Shown here piece after piece: positions 3,761 through 22,461 of a stretch of 22,461 bases of DNA. The DNA lies in IMG/VR virus record IMGVR_UViG_3300013101_000113, positions 1 to 22,461 of that record; one strand, 5' to 3'. How positions within the stretch are numbered: position 1 is the stretch's first letter; the number at the start of each line of letters is the position of its first letter. A program made the translations under genes and the position numbers. The notes under the pieces are model-generated. The model had not been told where the DNA came from. It saw only the letters and a list, made by a program, of their open reading frames with translations, and ran no database searches. The DNA is from a virus.

Positions 3761-4945
3761 ATGGCATGTACTCAATTTGCTTCAACAAATACAACAGATT
3801 TATCATACATATTAGAAGTAGATTGTGGTATCACTCCTGATACTCCTGCTTTAAATATCCTTCCAACGACAGGTGGTGGGCCAACTGGTAATATCACAAC
3901 TACAATTTCAGAAGTTATTCGTGCAGATAGAATGACAGATGATTTGGTTGTAACTGACTCAGAGATTGGCGGTACCACAAACTATGAATTATCATATGCT
4001 CCTTATAAGCCTATCATTGGCTCATTGCTAATGGACAGCACTCCTGATACAGTTGCACTAACAGATCAAACTCTGACTATTGTAGCCGCAACTGGTGCTG
4101 TTACAGGAACAGGAACTACTTTCCTGACAGATTTAAAAGTAGGTCAATTTGTTCGTATCAATAGCGTAACAGATACTGGATCTAATGGAGTATTCAAGGT
4201 CGTATCCATTGCAGATGATACAAACATGGTTGTGACACCAAGTACAACCAATGTAGATGCTACAGCAATTGATTTCACCATTGATGGAACCAATTACAGA
4301 AATGGCACTGACGCAGCTGATAATTATACTTTTGCCAAAAGAATTTTAAATGGCGCCACTACTAGCTATTTCTACTATCGTGGATGTCAGATTTCTTCAA
4401 TGTCATTTAATTTTGAGACTGGCTCAATTCTGAATGGTGCATTTGATGTAATGGGCTTGACAGAGGAAGCTACTGATACTGAGATTCCCGGTTCTTCTTA
4501 TATTAATCCGCCTTCATATAGCTTAATGAATAGCGTAAGTTCTATTAGCAGTATTGATATCGGTGGTGTATCTGCATCAACTGAGTTTAGTAACTTAAAT
4601 CTTACTGTCAATAACAATATAACTCCTGCAAAGGCTATTGGTACTTTAGGTGCTGCGGCTCTTGCCCCATTTACATTAGAAATATCTGCTGACTCAACAG
4701 TGTATTTTGAAGACACTGTTTTGTACAATCAGTATTTACAAGCTAATGCATTTTATCTCGATATTACTTTGCAAGATGGTGATAATAACATAATTGTTAT
4801 CTCTTTGCCAAAAGCAAAATTCTCAGAATTAGACGTTCCTGTTGATGGAAAAGATAACTTCTTATTCCAGAATGGATCAATCACAGCGTTACGTGATGAT
4901 GTAAATAATTACATGGTTCAAATCACTATGATTGATGCGTTGTAA
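3761..4945 (+). CDS. Major tail tube protein with an inserted beta domain
   Basis: A 394-residue tail tube subunit preceded by agagga (3747-3752). The N-terminal part reads LSYILEVDCGITPDTPALNI ... SEVIRADRMTDDLVV.DSEIGGTTNYELSYAPY, the pattern of the Phage_tail_tube_3-like family ('y..E...G.tP..p......s..EiRsDRq..d.......g....el.y..yd...'). Residues about 103-175 (TLTIVAATGAVTGTGTTFLT, DLKVGQFVRI, VVSIADDTNMVVT) look like an extra small beta-barrel placed in the tube domain. It could be displayed on the outside of the tail. The C-terminus ends in strand-forming ITALRDDVNNYMVQITMIDA. The size is larger than simple tube proteins of about 200-300 residues, accounted for by the insertion. Family name by recognition, not by search. 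Confidence 0.82.
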   Translation: MACTQFASTNTTDLSYILEVDCGITPDTPALNILPTTGGGPTGNITTTISEVIRADRMTDDLVVTDSEIGGTTNYELSYAPYKPIIGSLLMDSTPDTVALTDQTLTIVAATGAVTGTGTTFLTDLKVGQFVRINSVTDTGSNGVFKVVSIADDTNMVVTPSTTNVDATAIDFTIDGTNYRNGTDAADNYTFAKRILNGATTSYFYYRGCQISSMSFNFETGSILNGAFDVMGLTEEATDTEIPGSSYINPPSYSLMNSVSSISSIDIGGVSASTEFSNLNLTVNNNITPAKAIGTLGAAALAPFTLEISADSTVYFEDTVLYNQYLQANAFYLDITLQDGDNNIIVISLPKAKFSELDVPVDGKDNFLFQNGSITALRDDVNNYMVQITMIDAL

Positions 4946-8800: not shown

Positions 8801-9896
8801 GAAGAATATCAACAAGCTAACTCAAGCTCACATTGATATGAAAAAAGCTATCGCAGCTGGTGCAGGAGAAACTCAATTAGCGGAGATACAAAAGAGGATA
8901 GACAAGTACAGTGGTCTTACAGCAAAAGTAAAAGCTTTAGATAAAGCATTGAAAGATTCTGCCAAAGCTTCTGACAAATTAGCCAAAAAAGAAAAAAAAG
9001 CTCTTGAGGAAAGGATTAAGTTATGGGAGAAATTCAACCCTGATCTTGCAACATATTTAAATGAGGCAAAATCCTTAGCGAAAGCATTAAAACAAGGCGT
9101 CATAACGGAAAAAGAATTCAACAAACAGCTTAAAGAGCAACAAAAGCTTTTGAAATTAAATACTGGAAAAATGTCTGATTATGAAGAAGCGATTGAGGGA
9201 TGGAATTCTGGGCTTAAGAAATTTTCAGAAGAGGCTCAAGACTATTATTCGCAGATGGATTCATTTGCTCAGAAGACTATGAATAGTATGACAGATGCCT
9301 TGACAGAGTTTGTCACTACTGGTAAACTAGACTTTGCGAGCCTTGTGGATAGCATTGTTGCAGACCTTACCAGAATAGCAATTCAAGGTTCTATAACCGG
9401 TCCTTTAGCAGAAGTGCTTGGGATCGGAGGAGGAAGTTCTGGCGGAGGTGGTGGAAGTGCGGCAGGAGGTTTGCTAGGAGGATTGTTAGGAGGAGGCGGT
9501 GGTGGAACAGCAAATACATTAACCGCTGGAGGTGGTGGATTTGGCGGAATGCTGTCTAACGCAGCTATGATGTTTGGATTCAAAAATGGTGGGGCATTCA
9601 ACAATGGCGTCCAAGCATTTGCAAGTGGTGGAGTTGTAAACAGTCCCACGCTTTTCCCAATGGCTAACGGAGCAGGTTTGATGGGAGAGGCAGGTGCAGA
9701 AGCAGTAATGCCATTGAAAAGAACTTCAAGTGGAAAACTTGGTGTTGAAGCTTCTGGTGGTAGTAGTACAAATATAGTAATAAACATAAATGTCGCTGGG
9801 ACTAATGGCGATTCAGATGCAATAAGAAGAAGTGCAGGACAGGTTGCACAAGCCGCAGGTCAAGCTACTTCAAGAGCAATGAGAAGGAATGGGTAA
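5790..9896 (+). CDS. Tail tape measure protein
   Basis: A 1368-residue protein, the longest single-domain-family protein here, following the chaperone pair as in lambda. Residues 90-350 are charged coiled-coil with four repeats at an exact 70-residue period ('YDPLfAA..kYk......l...G.It' at 103, 173, 243, 313). Residues about 420-600 match the tape-measure N-terminal domain (SAGRLMGDEYRSISENLPLL and following helices). Hydrophobic stretches lie around 395-415, 695-720 and 750-800, as expected for segments that may enter the membrane. Residues 1150-1210 resemble the lambda tape measure C-terminal domain (MTDALTEFVTTGKLDFASLV). A Gly-rich linker (1211-1250) and a family-typical FASGGVVNSPTLFPMANGAG / GEAGAEAVMPL tail follow. 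By the usual ~0.15 nm per residue, the tail would be about 200 nm. Confidence 0.95.
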   Translation: MADYNVKINIEAQAAQRAISKLGTEISGAESRIDSFGESLIEFGFSTKKVLEITEKMSKALKTETGLRNLHNKATRESIKEINAQIKATADYEKAVERVSAKYNPLIAQQQKAAKLFNELTIALREGAITSDQFVKAFDKQMRVIDGTAAAEEKLLAITIKKNKALQASRKALDPLFAAQRQYKKNLIEIEKQKRAGNITTRERLLLINREKEVLSGVLSIEERHKQKLIEEGKALNDLKAKYDPLFAAMQKYKKTMAELNVLKDKGMVSEKFYANAVKETKRALRESLDVKNKIKEANAKEAKTLSDLRARYDTLYAAEQRYAKAQADLLRLRRAGVITKQQEIRLIAEATRRRNEETGATERNIGAVRRLTLAIREAGVWTTAWAGYVRVLRFAWKVFFGLTVAKTVGNWAIGFAKAGESVELLGKKLKFLTGESDALGKVANSARKVGIDLDTLNKTITRFAITAKGAFNVKEMLSWTEALVKSGRVAGTTNSELQSGLLQLSQSLSAGRLMGDEYRSISENLPLLKIELQKIFEEMGMGNIALKKLSSQGLITNDILIEAFQNLGKTVEGMPGSIGTIDSAISSLSTEVKLFIAEMTKGGSVVHDVIKSISESLRSLRQSIFGAIEGEDKLNDSIADSTLGTDNFSKSVKRVNEEIKKGTEITNEFLASIFGVNNAMASASDSIEETSVSMTLLGTAMSVIMTLFAGGIVVKLASFVARVAGLGLAARGAGASLRFMSAGVSGLQASFLLAAVGLNKFFGILKSGVQLFKGFFTVAGATFLAYAAAIAYPIAAIVDHVEKLERLKVVHEESIDPAIAYAENIKSIKKELDGLNVKELSDRMSENGLKMVENSGYTEELRGRISELSHQISLAPDNVENLRDQMVVLINVMNQLSVANQNLALDTKLSADEVDNISISFEGARKKGQDFLDSLKNKQGLDKEFLEFSRQQEQTVKHFDDLKKSIQGITVEQAAWLDQMKGAALQRAAKAFDEASKSSKKAKKNINKLTQAHIDMKKAIAAGAGETQLAEIQKRIDKYSGLTAKVKALDKALKDSAKASDKLAKKEKKALEERIKLWEKFNPDLATYLNEAKSLAKALKQGVITEKEFNKQLKEQQKLLKLNTGKMSDYEEAIEGWNSGLKKFSEEAQDYYSQMDSFAQKTMNSMTDALTEFVTTGKLDFASLVDSIVADLTRIAIQGSITGPLAEVLGIGGGSSGGGGGSAAGGLLGGLLGGGGGGTANTLTAGGGGFGGMLSNAAMMFGFKNGGAFNNGVQAFASGGVVNSPTLFPMANGAGLMGEAGAEAVMPLKRTSSGKLGVEASGGSSTNIVININVAGTNGDSDAIRRSAGQVAQAAGQATSRAMRRNG
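6096..6806 (+). repeat. Four 210-bp (70-residue) repeats in the tape measure gene
   Basis: Divergent repeats visible at protein level. The motif [Y/L][N/D][P/T]L.AAq begins at residues 103, 173, 243 and 313, and a G-x-[I/V]-[T/S] motif follows 24 residues later in each (127, 197, 267, 337). Spacing is exactly 70 residues each time. A degenerate relative occurs at about residues 1082-1106 (FNPDLATYLNEAKSLAKALK then QGVIT). The nucleotide sequences have drifted, so the duplication is old. Confidence 0.8.
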
Positions 9897-10570
9897 TGGC
9901 ATTTATAGAATCTCCAAGGTTTCCAGAGTTTATATCGTATGGGTCTAGTGGTGGCCCATCTTATAGCACTGATGTCATAACTGTGAAGAGTGGTTATGAG
10001 ACTAGAAACTCAAACTGGATTCAATCCAGAAGCAATTATGATGCTGCGTTTGGGATAAAAGTTCAGAAAGACATTGATACAATAGTTAATTTTTTTCATG
10101 CAATGAAAGGAAAGGCTAATGAGTTTCGGTTTAAGGACTGGGGAGATTACAAATCATGTCCACTTGATGACACGCCTAGTGCTATTGATCAATTCATAGG
10201 TATAGGCGATAGTACTGATGGTATAGATGGTGTGACAGATTTTCAGATAATAAAGAGTTATACTTCTGGAAGAACTACTGAGAGAGAAATCTACAAACCT
10301 GTTGTAGATTCGCTTGTTGTTGCAGTTGAAGGAATTGGTTCGGTTGAAGGCACAGACTATGATATAGATTATACTACTGGGATTATATCTTTTAAATCAG
10401 GGAGTGTGCCGTTATTGGATAGAGGTGATGGTCAACCAGAAACAATCACAGCTGGTTATGAGTTTGATGTTCCTTGTAGATTTGATTCAGATCAATTAAC
10501 AATAAACTTCGAGGCTTACCTTGTTGGTTCTGCAAGTATTCCAGTAATAGAGGTCAGAATTAATGTCTGA
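9896..10570 (+). CDS. Distal tail protein, DUF2460 / GTA g12-like
   Basis: A 224-residue protein with the pattern of the DUF2460 family (TIGR02217-like). It has FIESPRFPEFISYGSSGGPS at the N-terminus, then STDVITVKSGYETRNSNW, then a helix and FFHAMKGKANEFRFKDWGDY ('fF.a..G.a.gFr.kDw.Dyk'), and a C-terminal VPCRFDSDQLTINFEAY segment. In the Rhodobacter capsidensis-type GTA the equivalent g12 forms the ring joining tube and hub. The ATG overlaps the tape measure TAA by one base (TAATG), and the 3' end overlaps the next gene by eight bases, so the tip genes are coupled. Confidence 0.9.
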   Translation: MAFIESPRFPEFISYGSSGGPSYSTDVITVKSGYETRNSNWIQSRSNYDAAFGIKVQKDIDTIVNFFHAMKGKANEFRFKDWGDYKSCPLDDTPSAIDQFIGIGDSTDGIDGVTDFQIIKSYTSGRTTEREIYKPVVDSLVVAVEGIGSVEGTDYDIDYTTGIISFKSGSVPLLDRGDGQPETITAGYEFDVPCRFDSDQLTINFEAYLVGSASIPVIEVRINV

Positions 10571-12551
10571 GTTAACTAGTTATACATCATGTTTAAGAAT
10601 AGAAAGAACTGATGGATTTGTTCTTTGTATAACTGATTTAGACAGAAGTTTGGTGATAAACGATTCTATTCTTGGGTTAGGTGTTGATGATCAAACTTAT
10701 TTAGCTCCTGCCGGATATACTCCCACTAATATGCAAAGCACTTCTGACAATTCAGTGAACAATGCTGATATAGAAGGTGTGTTAACAGCCGTTGGAGTTG
10801 ATAGAAATGATATCATAGGTGGAAGATATGATTTTGCAAAACTAAATGTTTTCATTTACGATTATGAGAATCTTCTTTTAGTTAAGAAACTAGGCTCAGG
10901 TCATTGGGGCGAATCAACTGTCAAGGATAATTCTTATGTTGCTGAGTTTAGATCATTATCACAGCAAGTTCAGCAAACGATAGGAAGAACGTTTAATCCA
11001 GAGTGTGACGAACAACTAGGTGGGGTGAGATGTGGAGTTCCACTTGGAAATTTTCCTAAGAGTGGTGCAGTAACAGCGGATACAAGCAAAGATTATTTTT
11101 ATTCGTCCACAGTTACAGATGACAATGGTTTCTTAACTGGTGCTATAGCAACTTTTACGTCTGGAATAAATGATACTGTGTCTGCTCCAGTTGATTACAA
11201 TATCAAGGATACGCATAAAGTAGAATTAGGCGTTTCTCTTCCTAATGAGGCAGACATGGGTGCATCATTTGATATTGTGAAATTGGTTTTATCTGGTCAA
11301 TCTGTCACAGAAGTCGGCACAACAAACACTTTTGAGGATTCTGGTCAATCAAAGATAAATGGATATTACAATGGATGGAATATAACTTTTACATCTGGAA
11401 ACAATAATGGAATAACATACTCAGTCAATACTTTTGAGAATAACATTTTCACTACCGAGGAGATGTCAAATTTATCTGTGGAAGGTGATGCATTTGATTT
11501 ATTGAGAGTGGTTGCTGGGACTATAACTGTTATTGAAGTTCAGAGGACAGTTTTTACAGATACTTCACTGACAGAAGAAACGGGATACTTTGATGGATTG
11601 ACATTGGAGTTTACCACTGGTGATAATATAGGAAAAACCGCAACAATAATAAGCTACACTGGGATCGATAGAACGTTCACAATTGATGATGCGAATCTAA
11701 CTCAAGATTTGACTCCTGGCGATGGATATGAAATACTTAAACCGGATTCAGGTTCAATAACAAGCATAGATAAGAATAAGATATTTTCTGATTCATCATT
11801 AACAAACCCAAGTGGAGAGTTGATCGGGTATAGCATTCAGTTCACTTCCGGACCTAACACATCTGATAGTTATATAATAAGCAATCAGAATTTAGGGATA
11901 ATCACTTTGTTAAATCCTACTCCAGCTGATATATCGCCACTTGATGTTTATGATATAAATTATGAACAATCTGGAGTAATAGATTCTAATGGTGCATCAA
12001 AGGACGAAATTCTTGATGATACAATATTAGGTTCAGCAGATTTTAATGGAATGACTGCTCAAATGGATTCAGGAGCGAATGCAGGTCAGACCTCAACTAT
12101 TCAATCAACTAACACAGGGGCATTGGTTGTATCTCCTCCTTTTCCTAATTACAATCTAAATGGTGATAACTACAGTGTTATAAACTCAGGAGATAATTTT
12201 ATGTCTCTTGGTGAGATTACTGAAGTTACTGATAATCAAAATTTCAAAGCTACTTTGACTGATGATCCTAATTTTGGAGATGATTACTTCAACTATGGAA
12301 AATTGATATTCACTGGTGGTCAGAATGTTTCGATTCATATGGAGGTAAAGGATTTTATAGATGTTGACAATGTTTTTGAAATGTTTTTACCTTTCCCATT
12401 TGATATTGAAGTTGGTGATACTTTTCAGGTTTTTGCTGGGTGTGATAAAAGGCTTGAAACTTGCAAGACAAAGTTTGATAATCATATTAATTTTCAAGGA
12501 TTTCCGTATATTCCAGGCCAAGATGCCATAACGAAATTTGGTGGTCAATAA
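10563..12551 (+). CDS. Tail hub protein, DUF2163 / BR0599 type, with six tandem C-terminal modules
   Basis: A 662-residue hub. Residues 1-165 are the DUF2163 N-terminal domain (SYTSCLRIERTDGFVLCITD, the ADIEGVLTAVGVDRNDIIGG segment, and NPECDEQLGGVRCGVPLG). The C-terminal end is the BR0599-type segment: GDTFQVFAGCDKRLETCKTK followed by FDNHINFQGFPYIPGQDA. Relatives are usually about 280-300 residues with one C-terminal module. Here six modules of 74-82 residues lie in tandem, marked by an FTSG-like turn at residues 198, 276, 350, 427, 501 and 583. Four cysteines (148, 157, 627, 634) match the usual conserved quartet, despite 470 residues between the pairs. GTA g13 and lambda gpL relatives are reported to hold an iron-sulfur cluster, so a cluster here is an inference. 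Confidence 0.9.
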   Translation: MSELTSYTSCLRIERTDGFVLCITDLDRSLVINDSILGLGVDDQTYLAPAGYTPTNMQSTSDNSVNNADIEGVLTAVGVDRNDIIGGRYDFAKLNVFIYDYENLLLVKKLGSGHWGESTVKDNSYVAEFRSLSQQVQQTIGRTFNPECDEQLGGVRCGVPLGNFPKSGAVTADTSKDYFYSSTVTDDNGFLTGAIATFTSGINDTVSAPVDYNIKDTHKVELGVSLPNEADMGASFDIVKLVLSGQSVTEVGTTNTFEDSGQSKINGYYNGWNITFTSGNNNGITYSVNTFENNIFTTEEMSNLSVEGDAFDLLRVVAGTITVIEVQRTVFTDTSLTEETGYFDGLTLEFTTGDNIGKTATIISYTGIDRTFTIDDANLTQDLTPGDGYEILKPDSGSITSIDKNKIFSDSSLTNPSGELIGYSIQFTSGPNTSDSYIISNQNLGIITLLNPTPADISPLDVYDINYEQSGVIDSNGASKDEILDDTILGSADFNGMTAQMDSGANAGQTSTIQSTNTGALVVSPPFPNYNLNGDNYSVINSGDNFMSLGEITEVTDNQNFKATLTDDPNFGDDYFNYGKLIFTGGQNVSIHMEVKDFIDVDNVFEMFLPFPFDIEVGDTFQVFAGCDKRLETCKTKFDNHINFQGFPYIPGQDAITKFGGQ

Positions 12552-12973
12552 TGATAATAGATAATGTTATTGAAGAGGCCAGATCGTATTTAGGAACTAC
12601 TTGGGTTCATCAAGGACGATCCAGAAGAGGGGTTGATTGCGTAGGTTTTCTTCTGCTTTCATTTATGACATCTGGAATAAAATTAAATGATTCAAGAGGG
12701 TATGCAAGAAAACCTGATGGAATTATGTTAAAGAAAATGATGGATGGTCAGAAGAGTTTTATGACTGTTGGTAAAAATGACATAAAAGCTGGAGATGTTT
12801 TGTTGTTTAGGATACGTCATGATCCTCAACATGTCGGTCTAGTAGTGCCTAGCAAAACTGCAAAGTTTGGTATGATTCACTCATATAATGGTGGAGAAAA
12901 GAAAGTTGTTGAGCATGATTTAGCTGATTACTGGATCAAAAAAATAGTTGCTGTTTATAGGCTGATAGAGTAA
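12551..12973 (+). CDS. NlpC/P60 tail peptidase, GTA g14-like
   Basis: A 140-residue papain-like hydrolase of the phage NlpC/P60 type. The catalytic Cys is at residue 30 in GVDCVGFLL, the His at 94 in HDPQHVGLVV, and the third polar residue is probably His110 in GMIHSYNGG. The DIKAGDVLLFRI segment (about 77-88) is a family hallmark. The enzyme probably cleaves peptide cross-links of peptidoglycan during DNA entry and sits in the baseplate. The gene lies between hub and g15-like gene exactly as in the GTA. Its ATG overlaps the hub stop by one base, and its own stop overlaps the next ATG the same way. Confidence 0.93.
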   Translation: MIIDNVIEEARSYLGTTWVHQGRSRRGVDCVGFLLLSFMTSGIKLNDSRGYARKPDGIMLKKMMDGQKSFMTVGKNDIKAGDVLLFRIRHDPQHVGLVVPSKTAKFGMIHSYNGGEKKVVEHDLADYWIKKIVAVYRLIE

Positions 12974-15900
12974 TGGCAGTTGCGGCGGTAGGATTAGTAG
13001 GTGCGGCTGTAGGCTGGGGAGCTTTTACTGTTGGAGTAATAGGTGCAACTACTTTAGCGACAGCTGTTCAAGTTGGGTGGATAGCTGGCACCTTGTTGGG
13101 TACTTTGCTATTCGCAAAAGAGAACATCATAGAGCAATCAGGGCCAAGGCTAGGAGATTTAGATACTCAAACTGCTAAATGGGGAACTTCTATACCTAGG
13201 CTATTTGGATCATTTAAACTTGCAGGAAATGTTATATGGTCTTTACCATTGCATGAAACAAAGCATGTTGATGAATCAGGAGAAGGAAAAGGACAAGGAG
13301 GAACAAAGACATCATCAACTTGGTATTCGTATGCTGGTTCATGGGCTGTTGCATTTTGCGAAGGAACTATTGAAGGTGTAAAAAGAATATGGTTTGATTC
13401 TGTTTTGGTTTATGATGGTGTGAACTATCATGGAGGATTGGATTACGATAACTATAATGTGCACAAAGGAACTGGGAATCAAAGCGTTGATTGGTTTATA
13501 CAATCAAAAGACGAAGACACTCCTGCTTACAGAAATGTTGTTTATATAGTTTTCAGAAAGATAGAGCTTGAGAATTATGGGAATAGAGTTCCAAATGTAA
13601 GTGTCGAATTAGTGGAGAAAGGTGATTTTCCACCACCTAGATTTATAGATAAAACTATATTTAAGAATACTCCAGATTTGGATATGAATAAGTACTCTGC
13701 CACTTTATATGCAGGAAAGGGTGGGGTTGCTTATGTTCATCCCGGATTAAAGATGAGTTTGCAATCTCATGGAAAGGCTGTCATAAGCTCTCAGTATCCT
13801 CCAAGAGAAGATGACGATGATTTAGGTGAATTCACAGAGTATAGATATTTCTCGCTGAAAGGTCAGGAGAAGTTTCCACTTCCAGAAAAACCAGAAATCT
13901 TGGAGCCAGAATATAACATAGAATCCGCAAGAGTCTATTACACAGAAAGGTTTGAATATGTGCTATTGGTAGGAGGTGGAGGATATCAATATTTGGTGAT
14001 TCCTCCAGTAGAGAATTCTCCTGATAACGATGCAAGAGTTATTATAGATGATGAAAACATTCACGATATTGCTCCATATGATGATGGATTGCTACAGCTA
14101 AATACTAATGATGAGATTATAATACTTGATTCGAATTTTATTGAAGTAAGAACTGTAAGTCTAAATTGGAATGACAAAAAACCAAAGATGACTACAAATG
14201 TCTTTGAAAGAACTAGAATAACAAATGTTGATAATGGAGTTGTTTACATAGCGGCAAGCAGTTCTGAGTTCATAGATTCTATAGGTTGGTTATTCTATAA
14301 AACTAATCTTGATGATGGAAACGTAGAGTATCTAGGAGAGTTTAGGGATACTGATAACATAAATTTCACAAACTCCAGTCAAGCTACGTCTATAATAATC
14401 AAGAATGCTATTGCAAATATATCTCAAGCTTCTGTAACTTATTCATATTATTATGTTGATTTATCTCCATTTGACAAACTTTCTGTTCCTATCAGCAGTG
14501 TGTGTAGTGACGTATTACTAAGGGCTGGTTTAAAGGAAGATGAGTTTGACGTTTCTGATGGAGTGGAGTTGATTAGTGGATATGTAATAACAAAATCTAT
14601 GTCAGCTAGAGCAGCGTTGCTTCCAATCACCACTGCTTATCAATATGACATGACTGAAATAGATAGTGTGATTAGGTTATTAAAGCGTGGATATGATAGC
14701 TTAGTGCAGATAAACATGAGCGAGGAAAGTGTTGGAGATGTTTCTGTCAAGAGAACTCAGGAGGTTGAGTTAAGCAAACAGATCAATGTTCAATATGCAA
14801 ACGAATCAAATGATTATCAATACGGATTGCAAGTAGCTCAGAGAATAGATAGAAATGCAGATGGTATAAGAAATTATCAGTTTAACATGGCTTTGACTGA
14901 TGACAAGGCAAAGCAGATAGCTGAGATAATATTATTCAATGAATGGAACGAAACTCTAACTTTTGAATTCATGCTATCAAGAGATTACGAGTATCTTAAA
15001 CCTGCTGATGTAATAACATTATTATATGACGGAAGTAATTACAATGTTAGGGTGACAGATATAGCATTCAATACTGATAGTTCTATCTCTATTAAATCGA
15101 CAATAGAGAATGGAGAGGTCTATGAGTCTTTTGCAGAAGGGAGCAACACAAACAACAGTGGTCTTACTCAAGACAAAGTTGATTTAATTGGTATTACGTA
15201 TATGTATGTTTTAGACATACCAACTCTTGATAGTCAGTTAGATTTTCCAAGTTTATACATAGCTGTTAGAGGTGCTTTTTCAGGATGGAAAGGTTGTGAA
15301 GTTCATAAATCGAGAGACAATGTTGATTACTCCAGAGTAATAGGTGGTCTACAAAACACTATAATGGGCTACACACTAACTGAATTGCAGACTGGTGTAT
15401 CTCATATTTTTGATAGAGCAAGTGTTGTTACGGTAATTGTCATAGACGAATCTTTATATTCAGTAACAAAAGAGATTCTTCTTTCTGGAGAGAACTATGT
15501 TCTTATCGGTAATGAGATATTGCAATATCAAGATGCTATTGATAATGGTGACAACACTTTTACATTAAGAAATTTCCTAAGAGGAAGGAGAGGTACTGAA
15601 TGGGCAATTACGACTCATGAATTGAATGATAGATTTGTCTTTTTGGATACTACCTTGTTAGCTGACATAGATGTAACGATAAGCTCAAAGACTTATTACA
15701 AAGCGACCACTTTGGGTCATTTTGTTGAAGATTCATCCCCTATAGAAATAACACCTGAGCTTGTATCAAAAATGCCTTTTTCTGTTGAATACATAAGGTG
15801 TCAAAGCGAAGACAATGATGACAAAACAATTCAATGGATGAGAAGATCAAGAGAAGTATCAGGATACATGAGAACACTATCACTGTTCGAAAGTTTTGAG

Positions 15901-16098
15901 AGATATCAAATCGATATTTACGATGATGCTCATGTAGATGTTGTTGCTACAAAAACAATTGATGAAGCTCAAGAATATTTTTACCCAGCATCAAATCAGA
16001 CGTCTGATGGGATAACGCCTGGATTGCCAATGAAGATAATGATATATCAAATGTCGGATTTTGTTGGACGTGGATATGGAAAAGAGGCTATTTTATAA
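12973..16098 (+). CDS. Giant tail-tip protein, GTA g15-like, paralog 1 of 3
   Basis: A 1041-residue protein. Residues 4-47 are a hydrophobic Gly/Ala-rich segment. Residues 56-215 are a conserved tail-tip domain (GPRLGDLDTQTAKWGTSIPR, LFGSFKLAGNVIW, WAVAFCEGTIEGVKRIWFDS, DTPAYRNVVYIVF, NRVPNVSVELVE). Residues about 220-500 are a variable beta-rich middle, propeller-like by eye. From about 505 a second conserved region starts (SSVCSDVLLRAGL, ISGYVITKSMSARAALLPIT, LKPADVITLLYDG) like the Phage-tail_3/g15 C-terminal half. It then has NYVLIGNEILQYQDAIDNGD and LRNFLRGRRGTEW near 840-877. In GTA g15, this region contacts the hub and host-recognition parts. The TIM-barrel segment of g15 is not recognisable. 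Start overlaps the peptidase stop by one base. Confidence 0.85.
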   Translation: MAVAAVGLVGAAVGWGAFTVGVIGATTLATAVQVGWIAGTLLGTLLFAKENIIEQSGPRLGDLDTQTAKWGTSIPRLFGSFKLAGNVIWSLPLHETKHVDESGEGKGQGGTKTSSTWYSYAGSWAVAFCEGTIEGVKRIWFDSVLVYDGVNYHGGLDYDNYNVHKGTGNQSVDWFIQSKDEDTPAYRNVVYIVFRKIELENYGNRVPNVSVELVEKGDFPPPRFIDKTIFKNTPDLDMNKYSATLYAGKGGVAYVHPGLKMSLQSHGKAVISSQYPPREDDDDLGEFTEYRYFSLKGQEKFPLPEKPEILEPEYNIESARVYYTERFEYVLLVGGGGYQYLVIPPVENSPDNDARVIIDDENIHDIAPYDDGLLQLNTNDEIIILDSNFIEVRTVSLNWNDKKPKMTTNVFERTRITNVDNGVVYIAASSSEFIDSIGWLFYKTNLDDGNVEYLGEFRDTDNINFTNSSQATSIIIKNAIANISQASVTYSYYYVDLSPFDKLSVPISSVCSDVLLRAGLKEDEFDVSDGVELISGYVITKSMSARAALLPITTAYQYDMTEIDSVIRLLKRGYDSLVQINMSEESVGDVSVKRTQEVELSKQINVQYANESNDYQYGLQVAQRIDRNADGIRNYQFNMALTDDKAKQIAEIILFNEWNETLTFEFMLSRDYEYLKPADVITLLYDGSNYNVRVTDIAFNTDSSISIKSTIENGEVYESFAEGSNTNNSGLTQDKVDLIGITYMYVLDIPTLDSQLDFPSLYIAVRGAFSGWKGCEVHKSRDNVDYSRVIGGLQNTIMGYTLTELQTGVSHIFDRASVVTVIVIDESLYSVTKEILLSGENYVLIGNEILQYQDAIDNGDNTFTLRNFLRGRRGTEWAITTHELNDRFVFLDTTLLADIDVTISSKTYYKATTLGHFVEDSSPIEITPELVSKMPFSVEYIRCQSEDNDDKTIQWMRRSREVSGYMRTLSLFESFERYQIDIYDDAHVDVVATKTIDEAQEYFYPASNQTSDGITPGLPMKIMIYQMSDFVGRGYGKEAIL

Positions 16099-19000
16099 TG
16101 TCAGGTAATTCTATAGGAACAATTGTAGGAGCGGCGATAGGATTACTTGTTCCAGTTATAGGGCCAGGTTTAGGCGCTTCCATTGGTGGTGCAGTAGGAG
16201 GGATGCTACTGCCTGATAAACTAGGCATTCAAGATCAGAATGGGCCAAGGCTTAATGATCTAAGCGTTACTAGTGCATCATATGGTGCAACTATTCCTAA
16301 GACTTATGGTGCATACAGAATATCTGGAAATGTTATTTGGACTGAGGGTATAAGGGAAGTAAAACACGTAAGAGAGGAAGAGGTAGGCAAAGGAAGTGAG
16401 ACGTATGATGTAACATGGTTTACATATTCTGTCGATATAGCTATAGGGATATGTGAAGGGGAAATCCATAACATAAGCAAGGTATGGGCAGATTCTATTC
16501 TGATATGGGACGCCAACACTGGTGGTTTTACTACATCTATAGTAGATCAGGATGAAGCATCCGGTAATATGTCTATTTATACAGGAAGGCAAGACCAAAA
16601 ACCAGATTGGTTGATGCAAAAATCAGAACCAGACACACCAGCATACAGAAATGTTGCTTATGTTGTTTTCAACAACCTACAGCTAGAAGTGTTTAAAAAT
16701 CGCATACCTAATTTTACATTTGAAGTGAACAGTCAGGCTCCGCCAGAAGCTCTTCCTATGATACTTGGAGGGCATTCCACAATTGAGGGGTTTGATATAA
16801 CAGACCCCGGCATAAGAAACTATGATCCTATACTTCCTGTTAAAGCTAGTGCTGTTAATGGAGTTATAAACTCAGTTAAGTTTGTTGGTGCATATGATTT
16901 GCCTGTTGGAGATGTGACTCCAAGGATAACCCAAGGCTGGGCTGAGTATCATATATTTCAGGATGATCAAGTAAGAAGACAAGCTCCAATAGCAGATTAT
17001 GAAGGAATGGCGGCAGATGATCAGTTCAATCAAATTCCTTCGGCCGGCTCTAAAGGATGGACTCAAGAAGATAAGCTTAGTTCTACATTAAATTTCATAG
17101 GAACTGTGTATGATTTTGGAGATTGGGGAGGCACTTCTCACCAATTGATAGGGCTAGGTATTTTTGCTAATCCATATGGAGGAAGGCAGATAAGAACGCT
17201 TCCATCTAAGATAGTTGAAAGACACGGTTCTCTGTATGCAATGGCAGATACTATGCTTGTAGACGGCATTGCAGGTACAACTAATAGGATAAATGTTCAA
17301 AAAATAATAAAATACTCATATCCACCTGTTACAGTTCAGACAAAAAAAGGCTCTAGCTCTCCGCCAGTCAGTCCTGAATATGAATGTTATGTCACTTATG
17401 CTGGCACAGAAGACACGGCAAGAGGGAAGTTTATAAACCCAGATCATCTACCATGTTCAGAAATACATTTGGAGGATGACTTTGTTCCTGATTTAGTGTA
17501 CGATTTTACTAGACCTATTCAAGACATTTTTGATGTTTCAGAATACACCAACATTGATAAAAACAATAATGGGCGATATGATTTTTTTGTTGGCATAGAT
17601 AACATATACTTTATAGAAACATATAATATGTATGATGATGGACCGTTGTTTATAACAATGGATCTTGATGGTAATGTGACAGACCAAAGAATACTAAAAC
17701 ACCCTATGTTTTCATCTAATATGAGAGCGGATTTAATAGTCCATAGAACTGATGCAATAGTTTATTTAGTAATTGATTATTTATCGAGACATGATTCTTA
17801 TAATGTGTGGTCTAAAGCAGTATTTGAAATTAATACCTTTGATGATTACAGGATTGATTATTTAGGATATACGTATGTGCCAGACAGATATGACTGGTAT
17901 TGTTTCACTTTTGCAGGCACTCCGTATTTAGACATAATCGACGGTAGATTTTATATGTCTCAGTTAGAGATGTATAGTCGATCAGATAGTGGATGGCCTA
18001 ATGGGCAAAAATGGCTAGGTGCTGGAATATGGTCTTTATACTCTGCATCTTATGAAGGCATTCCATTATCTGAGATAATAATTGATTTGCTTGTTAGAGG
18101 TGGAATAGACGAAAGCGTTATAGAAGCCGGTGAAGCTGCGAGTACTACTGTAAAAGGGTTTTTAGTTGCAAAACAAATGTCAACAAGATCGGCTATAGCA
18201 GAACTTCAAAAAACTTATTTGTTTGATCTTATTGAGCAAGATTTCGGTTTTGTGGTCAGGATGAGAGGAGATTTTCTTTCAGTAGGCACAATAAGTCATC
18301 AAGATGTTAGTGGTGTGATAGAGATTGCAACCACTATAGATACTGAAATTCCAAGAAAAGTTACTTTGAGGTATCCAAATAAGAATACTGATTATCAAGC
18401 AGGATCACAGACAGCAATAAGAATAGATGGAAACAGTGATAATAATGTTGTGATTGAAACTGTTGTTGTTTTTACTGATGATGAGGCGAAACAATTAGCA
18501 GAAAAATTATTGTATTCTTCTTGGGGCGGGAAGTCTACTATAAAACTTTCTATACCTTTTACAAATAAATATTCCGTAGCTGATATAGTTACTATTGTTG
18601 ATGTCACTGTTACATATAATGCAAGAATAGTGAAAATAAATTATTCTGACAACCATCTTATGCAGGTTGATTTGGTTGTCGAAGACACATCTAGTTATAC
18701 GTCTAATGCAGAAGGTTCAAGCACTGATGATGGATTCTTAACAAATAGACCAGATGATATATCTAATACATATCTCGAAGTATTCAACGCTCCACATTTG
18801 ATCAATAATTTGATAAAATCAAGAGGGATTTATTATGGTGCAGAAGGATACGGGGATTTATGGAGAGGTTGTGAGGTTTTTAAATCAAAGAACTCAGGTC
18901 AAACCTATCAATCGGTAGGGGCAATACTTGATGCATCTGTTATTGGTCAAGTATCTCCAGCTTTGAAATATCACAAATCTGCTGTATGGGATACCACTAG

Positions 19001-19661
19001 TGTGTTGAATGTATTTGTTGGCGATGATGTATTGTATAGTGTTTCACAGGAAGAAATAAACAATGGCACTGCAAATTTAGCATTGGTTGGGAAAGAAGTC
19101 ATTCAATTTAAAGATGTTATAGAGAAAGAATACGGTGTGTATGAACTTACAAATTTGATAAGAGGATTACAAGGCACTGAAAACGCAGCTGGAGAGCATG
19201 AAGATTTTGAATTATTTGTAATGCTCAATCTTGATTTAGGGTTTTCTTTTTCCACGTTAGATTTGGAAAGAAAGTATGTTGCAGCGTCCTTTGGGAAACT
19301 TGTAGATTATAATGGTGCTATCGATAGGACATATGATGGCACTAACCTAAAACCTCTTTCTCCAACAAGACTCAATAGTGTGTTGATGCCTAATGGCGAT
19401 AAAGAAATAACTTGGAACAGAAGAGACCGATATGTGAGGTATAGCTTTAATACGTCACCATTTTCTGAGACTTCTGAAATATACAAACTTGAGTTTTTGG
19501 CATCAGGTGTGATTGTTAGAGAGGAAGAGATATATTCCGATTACACTTTTCTATACACAGTTTCAATGCAATCAACTGACGGTAATGTTGATTTAATCAG
19601 AGCTTATCAATTTTCTGATGATATTTTTAAGGCTGGTGAATATTCGGAGATAACTATCTAA
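16098..19661 (+). CDS. Giant tail-tip protein, GTA g15-like, paralog 2 of 3
   Basis: A 1187-residue paralog of the preceding protein. It opens with a glycine-zipper segment (IGTIVGAAIGLLVPVIGPGL, residues 6-25, and GGAVGGMLLP), then the conserved domain at 49-210 (GPRLNDLSVTSASYGATIPK, NRIPNFTFEV). The variable middle runs from about 212 to 650, the longest of the three, rich in Tyr, Trp and Asp, beta-strand-like, without similarity by eye to the middles of the other two. The conserved second half starts at about 655 (LSEIIIDLLVRGGI, VAKQMSTRSAIAELQ) and carries NLALVGKEVIQFKDVIEKEY then LIRGLQGTENAAGEHED near residues 993-1035. Expected role is in the baseplate or receptor recognition. The start is TAATG with the preceding gene's stop, and agagg lies ten bases upstream. 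Confidence 0.85.
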   Translation: MSGNSIGTIVGAAIGLLVPVIGPGLGASIGGAVGGMLLPDKLGIQDQNGPRLNDLSVTSASYGATIPKTYGAYRISGNVIWTEGIREVKHVREEEVGKGSETYDVTWFTYSVDIAIGICEGEIHNISKVWADSILIWDANTGGFTTSIVDQDEASGNMSIYTGRQDQKPDWLMQKSEPDTPAYRNVAYVVFNNLQLEVFKNRIPNFTFEVNSQAPPEALPMILGGHSTIEGFDITDPGIRNYDPILPVKASAVNGVINSVKFVGAYDLPVGDVTPRITQGWAEYHIFQDDQVRRQAPIADYEGMAADDQFNQIPSAGSKGWTQEDKLSSTLNFIGTVYDFGDWGGTSHQLIGLGIFANPYGGRQIRTLPSKIVERHGSLYAMADTMLVDGIAGTTNRINVQKIIKYSYPPVTVQTKKGSSSPPVSPEYECYVTYAGTEDTARGKFINPDHLPCSEIHLEDDFVPDLVYDFTRPIQDIFDVSEYTNIDKNNNGRYDFFVGIDNIYFIETYNMYDDGPLFITMDLDGNVTDQRILKHPMFSSNMRADLIVHRTDAIVYLVIDYLSRHDSYNVWSKAVFEINTFDDYRIDYLGYTYVPDRYDWYCFTFAGTPYLDIIDGRFYMSQLEMYSRSDSGWPNGQKWLGAGIWSLYSASYEGIPLSEIIIDLLVRGGIDESVIEAGEAASTTVKGFLVAKQMSTRSAIAELQKTYLFDLIEQDFGFVVRMRGDFLSVGTISHQDVSGVIEIATTIDTEIPRKVTLRYPNKNTDYQAGSQTAIRIDGNSDNNVVIETVVVFTDDEAKQLAEKLLYSSWGGKSTIKLSIPFTNKYSVADIVTIVDVTVTYNARIVKINYSDNHLMQVDLVVEDTSSYTSNAEGSSTDDGFLTNRPDDISNTYLEVFNAPHLINNLIKSRGIYYGAEGYGDLWRGCEVFKSKNSGQTYQSVGAILDASVIGQVSPALKYHKSAVWDTTSVLNVFVGDDVLYSVSQEEINNGTANLALVGKEVIQFKDVIEKEYGVYELTNLIRGLQGTENAAGEHEDFELFVMLNLDLGFSFSTLDLERKYVAASFGKLVDYNGAIDRTYDGTNLKPLSPTRLNSVLMPNGDKEITWNRRDRYVRYSFNTSPFSETSEIYKLEFLASGVIVREEEIYSDYTFLYTVSMQSTDGNVDLIRAYQFSDDIFKAGEYSEITI

Positions 19662-22461
19662 TGGGAACAGCAGCGTTTGGTGCAATAGGATCAGCAATAG
19701 GTGGTGAGGTAGCAGGAGCTTTTGGTTCTCAGTTAGGTTGGGTTGCTGGAACGCTAGTAGGAACCTACTTGTTTGCTCCTCCCGGTCCTGATTTAGTACA
19801 AGAGGGGACTAGACTTGATGATTTAAAAGTGACATCGTCCACTTATGGAGCTAGTGTTCCTAAGCTTTTTGGATCTTATAGACTATCTGGCAACGTTATA
19901 TGGGCCAAAAAGATTCGCGAAACCAAACATGAAGAGAGTCAAGATTCAGGAAAAGGATTAGATGGTGGAACATCTACTACGATATGGTACACATATGATG
20001 CAACATGGGCCGTTGCTTTCTGTGAAGGTCCGATAGACGGCATTAGAAAAATATGGTTTGATTCAATTCTTGTTTATGAAAATGGAAAGTCTGAGATAGG
20101 CGATAGAATAACAATCTACAATGGAACTGATGATCAAGAAGTTGATTGGGTGATACAGTCAGACAGAGAGGACAACCCTGCTTACAGAAATATCGTTTAT
20201 GTTGTTTTTAATGAGGTTAAGCTTAAGAAGTATGGTGATAGGATACCTAATGTTACTTGCGAAGCTGTAATAGGATCAAGCAATGAAAGAGACGTTTATC
20301 ATACTGTCACTGGAGAGATAAATTTCTCAGACACTCTTTCTGAGATAATGGGAATTGATTTTGACGCAGGTGTAAACAAGGATTTTGTGTTTAACAGTCC
20401 ATCAAATTCTATGTTTTTTGTTGCCACAAGAACAGATCCAGTGACAAGATTGATCACAGATTCTGTTTTGGCAAAAGTAAATGTAGAAGGCCGCATTGTT
20501 TTTTATAAGATAATTAAGCCTCAGAAGTATGAGTATTCTATAGGAGATGGTGGATTAGTTTTATGGTCTGATAATGCCAATGTTTCTGCTGATTTTTTTG
20601 TTTATGACGACCAATTGGATTTAATATCCAGTCAGACTCTTTTGTATTACAACATTGATACCGATACTTATTGGGCTGGAGGTGAAGGGTTTTTTGTTTC
20701 AAAGGTTGCCTATACTGATAAAAAACTTATTTGGATGGTGAGGGATTACACAACTCAATTTGCTGGTGGGATTTATGTAAATGGAGATAAAGTCATTGAT
20801 GGTGCTGATTTAACTGATATATATCCAAGAAACGGATTATCTGCCATTGGAGGAAAGATAGTTTTATTTTCTGACAGAGCATTTGCGCAGGTAGGTGATG
20901 AGTATAAGATAAGAGTTTATGAGACAACTGGCGATCTTGATTTTGAGATGGATTATAAAAAATACAAGTACTCAGAGATACTTTCCATAAACAATGCAAC
21001 AACTCAGTTTAAGCCAACGGAAAATGGGATTATAGTTGCTTGTTCTTTTGGTTGGGATAATGGTAGACATCATTGGTTAATTGACACAAATGATGCTGAT
21101 GCTTTTGAATATCTAGGTGCTAATAAACCATCTGGAGATGAAGGGTATGGCGATGCAAAAGGTGGATTTTATTCAAGCAACATAAATTATATTCTCGATA
21201 GCACTTGGGGAGTTGTTTTAGCAAATACATCGGCATTGCTTACTAGTCAAGGAATAAGATTATCTGACTTATGCTATGGTTTATTGATAGAGTCTGGTCT
21301 TGATGATGTTGATTTGGATATGACAGAAGGGAAAGATACTATTGTTTCTGGATATGTCGTTTCCAAGAATATGCCTGCAAGAACGGCCATTGAACCTGTG
21401 TTATCTGCATATGAATTTACGCTTGTTGAAATAAACTCTACAATGAAGCTTAGAGAGCAAAATCAGATATCCTTAGCAAACATACCAGAGGATGATTTAG
21501 GCGCAGATGGCAACAATAAGATGGAGTACAACTCATCTCAAGAAATGGATTTACTGAAAAGCTTAACAATAAAGTTCTCTAACAGAGACTCTGATTATCA
21601 AACAGGCGTTCAAAGTGTAAGAAGAATCGACACTGATGCTACAACAGAAAGAGTTATGGAGCTTCCACTAGCTTTATCTGATAAAGAGGCAAAAGAATTA
21701 GCTGAAAAGAATTTGTATAAAAATTGGCTTATGAGGCAGTCTTATAAATTTGTAGTTCCGTATAAATATCGCTACTTAATACCTGGCGATGTTGTTACTG
21801 TTAGTTTTGATGGATATGTAAAAGATGTAAGATTAACAAAGATAATTTTCACTGACGACTTTCTTGTTGAATGCAATGGAATAGCAAATAATTATGGTGT
21901 ATATAATTCTGATGCAGAAGCTGATAGCACTGGAGAGAATGGTGGAGAGTTAGATTTAACGTCTTTCAGCACATACAATAACATTTTAGATGCTCCTACA
22001 CTGAATAATAAATATGTCAATGTTGAAGGTGTTTATTCTGGATTGTATTCGTTTTCAGATAACTGGAAAGGTGGCGTTCTAATGTCTAAGTCATTAGAGC
22101 TTGATAATTTCGCAATAAACTATACAACTTTTGAAGATATGCCAAGTGGTGTATCGAGTTCTTCTTTGCCAGATGCAAGTACTGATGTATGGGATAGGGT
22201 AAATGTATTAAAAGTTTATTCTAGCGGAATTTTGGAATCAAAAACAGAAGAGCAATTATTAGCTGGAGAAAACTATATACTTTTAGGTAGAGAGGTGTTA
22301 CAATATGCTAACGCCACTGAAATATCTTTGGGAATATACGAGTTAGATACATTGCTTAGGGGCAGGCTTGGAACTGAGTTTGAAACTGGTAGTCATTCAG
22401 GACAAGAGGTTTTTGCGTATCTGGATAGAAATGCTCTGTATTTTACATCAAAGCCAATGAA
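19661..22461 (+). CDS. Giant tail-tip protein, GTA g15-like, paralog 3 of 3 (3' end outside window)
   Basis: An open frame starts at ATG 19661, overlapping the previous stop by one base, and runs 933 codons to the window edge without a stop. The N-terminus has a Gly-rich hydrophobic segment (GAIGSAIGGEVAGAFGSQLG). The conserved domain follows at 49-205 (GTRLDDLKVTSSTYGASVPK, LFGSYRLSGNVIW, NPAYRNIVYVVFNE, GDRIPNVTCEAV). The variable middle is at about 210-530 (beta-rich; the segment IYVNGDKVIDGADLTDIYPR lies inside it). The conserved second half begins about 532 (IRLSDLCYGLLIESGL, VSKNMPARTAIEPVL, YLIPGDVVTVSF) and includes ENYILLGREVLQY ... LLRGRLGTEFETGSH near 869-915. By comparison with paralogs 1 and 2, about 145-150 residues (roughly 440 bases) remain beyond the window. 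Partial because of the window edge, not because of a mutation. Confidence 0.85.
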   Translation, partial: MGTAAFGAIGSAIGGEVAGAFGSQLGWVAGTLVGTYLFAPPGPDLVQEGTRLDDLKVTSSTYGASVPKLFGSYRLSGNVIWAKKIRETKHEESQDSGKGLDGGTSTTIWYTYDATWAVAFCEGPIDGIRKIWFDSILVYENGKSEIGDRITIYNGTDDQEVDWVIQSDREDNPAYRNIVYVVFNEVKLKKYGDRIPNVTCEAVIGSSNERDVYHTVTGEINFSDTLSEIMGIDFDAGVNKDFVFNSPSNSMFFVATRTDPVTRLITDSVLAKVNVEGRIVFYKIIKPQKYEYSIGDGGLVLWSDNANVSADFFVYDDQLDLISSQTLLYYNIDTDTYWAGGEGFFVSKVAYTDKKLIWMVRDYTTQFAGGIYVNGDKVIDGADLTDIYPRNGLSAIGGKIVLFSDRAFAQVGDEYKIRVYETTGDLDFEMDYKKYKYSEILSINNATTQFKPTENGIIVACSFGWDNGRHHWLIDTNDADAFEYLGANKPSGDEGYGDAKGGFYSSNINYILDSTWGVVLANTSALLTSQGIRLSDLCYGLLIESGLDDVDLDMTEGKDTIVSGYVVSKNMPARTAIEPVLSAYEFTLVEINSTMKLREQNQISLANIPEDDLGADGNNKMEYNSSQEMDLLKSLTIKFSNRDSDYQTGVQSVRRIDTDATTERVMELPLALSDKEAKELAEKNLYKNWLMRQSYKFVVPYKYRYLIPGDVVTVSFDGYVKDVRLTKIIFTDDFLVECNGIANNYGVYNSDAEADSTGENGGELDLTSFSTYNNILDAPTLNNKYVNVEGVYSGLYSFSDNWKGGVLMSKSLELDNFAINYTTFEDMPSGVSSSSLPDASTDVWDRVNVLKVYSSGILESKTEEQLLAGENYILLGREVLQYANATEISLGIYELDTLLRGRLGTEFETGSHSGQEVFAYLDRNALYFTSKPM

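Follow-up and report, generated by a model that had tools for sequence, protein, structure and literature searches.

Six tandem oligosaccharide-binding-type domains on an RcGTA-type baseplate hub, a putative fast-evolving adhesion array

The window analysed here, the whole stretch of 22,461 nucleotides from the uncultured phage record IMGVR_UViG_3300013101_000113, encodes an enlarged DUF2163/gpL-type protein that is a baseplate hub of the RcGTA type. Between its two cysteine pairs lies an array that is best read as six oligosaccharide-binding (OB) domains, M1 to M6, with sequence homology running through all six and the fold modelled for M4 and M5. Such a row would probably give the phage more, and a faster-changing, grip on the host surface by putative sugar binding. 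The reading preferred here, at a probability of about 0.6, is that of a multivalent and fast-evolving adhesion array on the hub, with presumed sugar binding, a presumed trimer and a predicted outward position. The lineage is represented by the window and the records L002 (IMGVR_UViG_3300013101_001348), L014 and L015, the last of which is cut off and starts like L014. No closer relatives than these three were found in viral_contigs, and the close-relative query gave none in genome_contigs.

In Pfam searches with the full protein, PF09931 passed its cut-off at residues 3-159 and PF09356/BR0599 was matched at residues 575-654 (E 1.1e-37). The frame of 662 codons is intact, its start overlapping the end of the DUF2460 gene and its stop the start of the NlpC/P60 gene, and the order DUF2460 - hub - NlpC/P60 - megatron is the one expected for a gpL-type hub (Table 1). 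The names of the hub domains were assigned by alignment to the hubs of RcGTA and R4C. Cysteines are found at residues 10, 22, 148, 157, 627 and 634 and nowhere else, and the four paired columns (148/157 and 627/634) were invariant in all 12 aligned hubs; from these four cysteines an Fe-S cluster is predicted for the window hub. The cysteine positions agree with the initial annotation, according to which the last module alone keeps its pair while the partner pair stays at 148/157. The span given there, 11061-12425, covers the array, whereas the gene itself is found at 10563-12551.

Table 1. Features of the hub gene, its repeated modules and the neighbouring tail genes in the window.
Feature	Coordinates	Strand	Evidence
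DUF2460 (distal-tail-type) gene, upstream neighbour	9896..10570	+	Pfam
Hub gene (DUF2163/gpL-type), 662 aa	10563..12551	+	ORF, Pfam
N-terminal attachment domain (PF09931), with Cys148 and Cys157 at its end as the first half of predicted Fe-S site	10563..11039	+	Pfam E 2.3e-34
Extra OB module M1, residues 164-242	11052..11288	+	27.8 bits, ordinary-hub profile
Extra OB module M2, residues 243-316	11289..11510	+	31.2 bits, ordinary-hub profile
Extra OB module M3, residues 317-393	11511..11741	+	29.6 bits, ordinary-hub profile
Extra OB module M4, residues 394-468	11742..11966	+	20.6 bits, ordinary-hub profile; AlphaFold model
Extra OB module M5, residues 469-543, weakest copy	11967..12191	+	5.9 bits, ordinary-hub profile; hhalign; AlphaFold model
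Last OB module M6, residues 544-626, orthologue of the one OB domain found in ordinary hubs	12192..12440	+	Module comparison
Second half of predicted Fe-S site (Cys627, Cys634) and clip region	12441..12548	+	Pfam PF09356 575-654, alignment
NlpC/P60 peptidase gene, downstream neighbour	12551..12973	+	Pfam
Megatron paralog a (Phage-tail_3, Rcc01698_C)	12973..16098	+	Pfam, tree
Megatron paralog b	16098..19661	+	Pfam, tree
Megatron paralog c, extending beyond the window	19661..22459	+	Tree

Six FTSG-like turns were found as reported earlier, at residues 198 (FTSG), 276 (FTSG), 350 (FTTG), 427 (FTSG), 501 (MDSG) and 583 (FTGG). The insert alone (residues 164-543) matched PF09356 in three stretches (E 2.2e-11, 44.4 bits against a cut-off of 22.9) and phrog_778 (E 5.2e-8). 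For the repeats a profile was made from the C-regions of 76 ordinary one-module hubs, among which near-copies were kept without thinning and from which the window, L002, L014 and the enlarged hubs were left out. On residues 159-543 this profile found five in-register copies (scores in Table 1), and the whole window insert reached 115.3 bits (E 9e-35 for Z=1000), bearing out the earlier claim that six homologous modules are placed between the two cysteine pairs. In the insert of L002 three copies were matched (66.6 bits). Chance or composition as the source of the repeats was rejected, the best of 2000 shuffles of the insert reaching 10.8 bits and 1430 of them scoring at all.

By pairwise Smith-Waterman alignment most pairs of the six window modules were above chance (M2-M3, z 10.1; M3-M4, z 10.5). 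The pairs M1-M5, M2-M5 and M3-M6 were weak and M5-M6 was at chance (z 0.2). Taken alone, M5 is weakly supported as a homologue (5.9 bits); hhalign aligned it, combined with its L002 counterpart, to the ordinary-hub profile at 93.5% (E 2.2e-7), and the eight extra modules of the window and L002 jointly at E 2.5e-17. Two further candidates were discarded. Recent duplication, or tandem repetition at the DNA level, did not fit the single 25-base row given by Tandem Repeats Finder, and a foreign base composition did not fit the GC of 0.34-0.37, which is similar to that of the flanks.

The initial annotation took the copied unit to be the whole C-terminal module. All five profile matches end before model position 84 of 129, short of the cysteines and the clip, and from this end and from the superposition on the RcGTA OB domain described below the copied unit is the OB domain alone, without Fe-S cysteines and clip. 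The placement between the halves of the metal site was correctly seen; it is the normal site of the OB domain in the RcGTA and R4C hubs, and the oddity is therefore the copy number.

An AlphaFold model covering M4-M5, based on an alignment of 56 rows, displayed two like beta domains (pLDDT 88.5, pTM 0.71); in the companion alignment M5 was covered by the query and L002 only. Strands were located at 31-34, 43-50, 53-56 and 69-73 in M4 and at 105-108, 117-124, 127-131 and 143-147 in M5, a near-constant offset of +74. Of the string of like domains previously suggested for residues 167-545, two were thus modelled; the single-sequence model of the full-length hub was of no use (pLDDT 32). The best VIA-align superpositions of M4 were with the OB domains of two hubs, that of RcGTA at residues 169-249 (Z 12.4 and 1.5 A over 75 residues) and that of R4C at 165-243 (Z 11.4, 1.7 A), followed by tail proteins of the phages Chi, Mystique and JBD30 and by GH110 enzymes (Z 8.3-9.6). 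From position 9 on the rows had Z 7.0-7.6, non-phage rows had Z 7-9, and LKA1 gp49, at Z 7.4, was within this background range. The VIA-align rows barely extend into M5 and have no bearing on its fold; the RcGTA OB fold (168-249) was found for M4 by superposition and for M5 by the matching strand order in the model. The same small beta barrel is also present in the EF-Tu and Uba1 rows, so the fold is no proof of function. Foldseek gave no match in the PDB at E <= 0.001 (best 8gtc_P, 0.062, and 6tba_7A, 0.12) and 24 at E <= 0.001 in the viral library, many of them unnamed phage proteins. One of these viral matches, A0A6J7X8S1, spans both modules (TMq 0.60), and similar tandem folds may occur in other tail proteins.

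The sibling phages differ in the number of modules, with one in L014 (281 aa), four in L002 (518 aa) and six in the window (662 aa). Over the core they are 66-80% identical, the N-domains at 71-80% (77% between L002 and the window) and the last module with the clip at 66-68%; M6 itself is 62-63% identical to the last modules of L014 and L002. Position-matched extras are only 21-37% identical between siblings, so the array evolves far faster, in both copy number and sequence, than the part of the hub that carries it. The trees of the N-domain and of the last module pair the window with L002 (91 and 99/90), the megatron trees a and c pair L002 with L014, and tree b pairs the window with L014. 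As the siblings combine a nearly constant core with one, four or six copies, they make the sugar-binding claim testable: copy number should track the strength or range of binding.

The hub may work as follows. The N-terminal domain would dock onto the ring of the distal tail and the two cysteine pairs would bind an Fe-S cluster, with M6 and the clip in the positions known from ordinary hubs. M1 to M5 would form a looped-out string leading from Cys157 back to M6 and Cys627; with both of its ends at the Fe-S site, this string would have to lie outside the tail tip. With three hubs per baseplate the tip would carry 18 OB domains in place of three, and the array would provide a multivalent, quickly changing hold on host surface polysaccharide ahead of DNA delivery. 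The fast divergence of the extras relative to the core fits a surface-binding, host-touching part. Consistent with adhesion, lectin-type domains are found at the same hub junction in other phages (Laminin_G_3 in DSS3P8, F5/8C in Lacusarx). Oligosaccharide binding by the extras is putative, judged from the name and the fold of the domain.

The extras were initially described as copies of the protein's own module, a view that the data do not establish. A module tree was made from 69 cores thinned from 100, over 84 columns, with 58 rows unlabelled and most forks unresolved; with the labelled rows alone compared, all 200 bootstrap trees had a branch that separated the eight extras from the three last modules. 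A profile of the eight extras scored OB domains of other hubs at up to 56.6 bits (L030; L059, 56.0 bits) and the protein's own last module at 25.4 bits. At odds that come close to even, the array was imported, OB modules from another phage's hub having entered next to the resident domain and multiplied there afterwards; the complete bootstrap separation and the profile ranking both speak for this, and an adhesive role would still be compatible with it. However, the end branches of the extras are long (0.96-2.1) on the 84 columns, where an old duplication with fast drift would look identical, and no donor with extras-like modules was found in the searches of viral_contigs and the phage records. 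Of 89 unthinned rows of ordinary OB cores, 100% share one glycine and 94% one glutamate. Both are present in all three last modules and neither in any of the eight extras, which retain the fold positions G45 (8 of 8) and N47 (7 of 8). The extras seem freed from a contact required of the resident domain, although which contact this might be is a guess.

Three consecutive diverged megatron (Phage-tail_3) genes are found also in the records of L002 and L014. Each of the megatrons a, b and c grouped with its L002 and L014 counterparts (SH-aLRT 99, 100 and 100), and the trio is therefore older than the split of the siblings. In 25 other hub-bearing records, which may be fragments, one megatron was found in 22, two in one and none in two; the record of L037 (L178) contains two Phage-tail_3 genes, possibly an intermediate between one megatron and three. 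RcGTA (PMC7296036) and R4C (PMC10276861) are described as having one megatron gene and three copies of its product, and gp99 of phiCbK, a megatron relative, as being duplicated in phage Colossus (PMC3556154). In the window lineage a mixed, heterotrimeric megatron ring is possible; so is the alternative that the megatrons are used separately, or that one of the three is chosen. A composite tip, in which non-interchangeable megatrons a, b and c are combined with the variable OB array to give 18 putative glycan sites in place of the three of the one-module sibling, is a somewhat doubtful extension; three different megatrons in place of three copies of one would then leave the tip without true threefold symmetry. 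Elsewhere in the window, the tail protein at 3761-4945 (phrog_290) matches the tail-fibre family phrog_1980 at residues 104-168 (E 6e-4), perhaps another inserted surface domain as judged from sequence likeness.

That the extras are structural and not adhesive, docking fibres or the three megatrons or acting as spacers that widen the tip, is unlikely. With three orthologous megatron paralogs in the lineage, extra docking faces could be wanted, and the extras have lost the two residues conserved in ordinary OB domains; but L014 carries all three megatrons with a single OB module, so the array is not needed for the megatrons, and the extras diverge far faster than the core, unlike an internal interface. 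A near-neutral expansion, in which tandem copies come and go by recombination with no selected role, would account for the varying copy number and for the second module of L002, which aligns piecewise with M2, M3 and M4, but it is very improbable, since the long frame has stayed open and nearly every one of the eight modules, at about 20-37% identity, retains the fold positions, which needs purifying selection.

The adhesion array was also compared with hubs at large. The OB profile matched 176 proteins among 9737 six-frame pieces, at 175 loci that include the window (L001), a repeat of L002 (L013) and the cut L015; most loci came from two scans, each giving the best 80 of about 600 stretches, and are no census. 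Among the loci listed, full tandem OB arrays were confined to the window and L002/L013. In L058 (ORF from 2968) a second, partial OB-like match follows the clip at residues 305-339 (11.5 bits), a C-terminal addition. The hub loci L110 and L152 are on contigs titled Archaeoglobales archaeon and Megasphaera sp., the rest being mostly proteobacterial, a difference that may reflect wrong binning or host range. That the insert is a generic module common among phages was rejected: tblastn with the whole insert (E <= 10) found two phage records, and with the M3 stretch seven of 50,697, every one at hub-type genes.

A long spacer before the OB domain was present at 15 other loci among those listed, L006 (F5/8 type C), L007 (Laminin_G_3), L008, L009, L036, L042, L055, L076, L077, L087, L094, L095, L111, L122 and L140, all enlarged by non-OB stretches. 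The ordinary-hub OB profile had no match in the inserts of L036, L042, L076, L077, L087, L094 and L095, of which those of L087 and L095 were cut to about 70 aa, nor in those of Lacusarx, DSS3P8, phiCbK and Bajun. One of ten enlarged-hub inserts scanned with Pfam passed a curated cut-off. The DSS3P8 insert matched Laminin_G_3 (5.1e-20) and that of Lacusarx F5/8 type C below its own cut-off (5.5e-5); weak HpiC1-like matches were seen in L036 and L042, and nothing convincing in the remaining six; the phiCbK insert had no domain assigned. The point where the OB domain follows the first cysteine pair is thus one at which several phage groups add lectin-like or other domains. The literature searched gave no account of a hub protein with tandem oligosaccharide-binding domains, in line with the initial statement that no described hub with such an expansion is known, although hubs enlarged in other ways exist. 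DUF2163 hubs of more than 500 residues, proposed earlier as a search target, include those of phiCbK (gp97, 541 aa) and DSS3P8 (686 aa); these, like the Lacusarx hub (463 aa), have their insert just ahead of the OB domain, at the junction used in the window, but differ from the window hub in that it does not consist of OB copies. In PMC3556154, gp97 is presented as a virion protein with three conserved domains.

A close likeness is to the hub of RcGTA, for which PMC7296036 describes an attachment domain, a two-piece ion-binding domain with four cysteines, an OB domain (168-249) between the pieces and a clip; the same four-part division, with the OB domain at 162-243, is described for R4C (PMC10276861). 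An Fe-S cluster is reported in the hubs of RcGTA (PMC7296036), R4C (PMC10276861) and lambda (gpL). The RcGTA domain was named oligosaccharide-binding from its structural similarity to the sugar-binding insert of LKA1 gp49 (PMC7296036), and the hub sites are counted among the RcGTA glycan sites. RcGTA g13 (6tba/6teh) is like the window hub in the attachment domain, the four Fe-S cysteines, the OB placement between the pairs and the clip, and differs in having one OB domain, 296 aa and a single megatron gene. The gene order Dit - hub - NlpC - megatron is common to the window and RcGTA (g12-g15, with NlpC as g14). The R4C hub (8gtc) is alike in plan and Fe-S site, and M4 superimposes on its OB domain, but it has one such domain and 291 aa. 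The L002 hub is a sibling with extra OB modules at the same place, three against the five of the window. The enlarged protein of the window is by Pfam the hub and not the DUF2460/Dit gene product, and is thus not an evolved distal tail protein; proteins of that kind carry a carbohydrate-binding insert. In lactococcal phages they tie the tail-tip scaffold to saccharide adsorption (PMC10688798), and they would work like the window hub without kinship to it, by another protein and with other module families.
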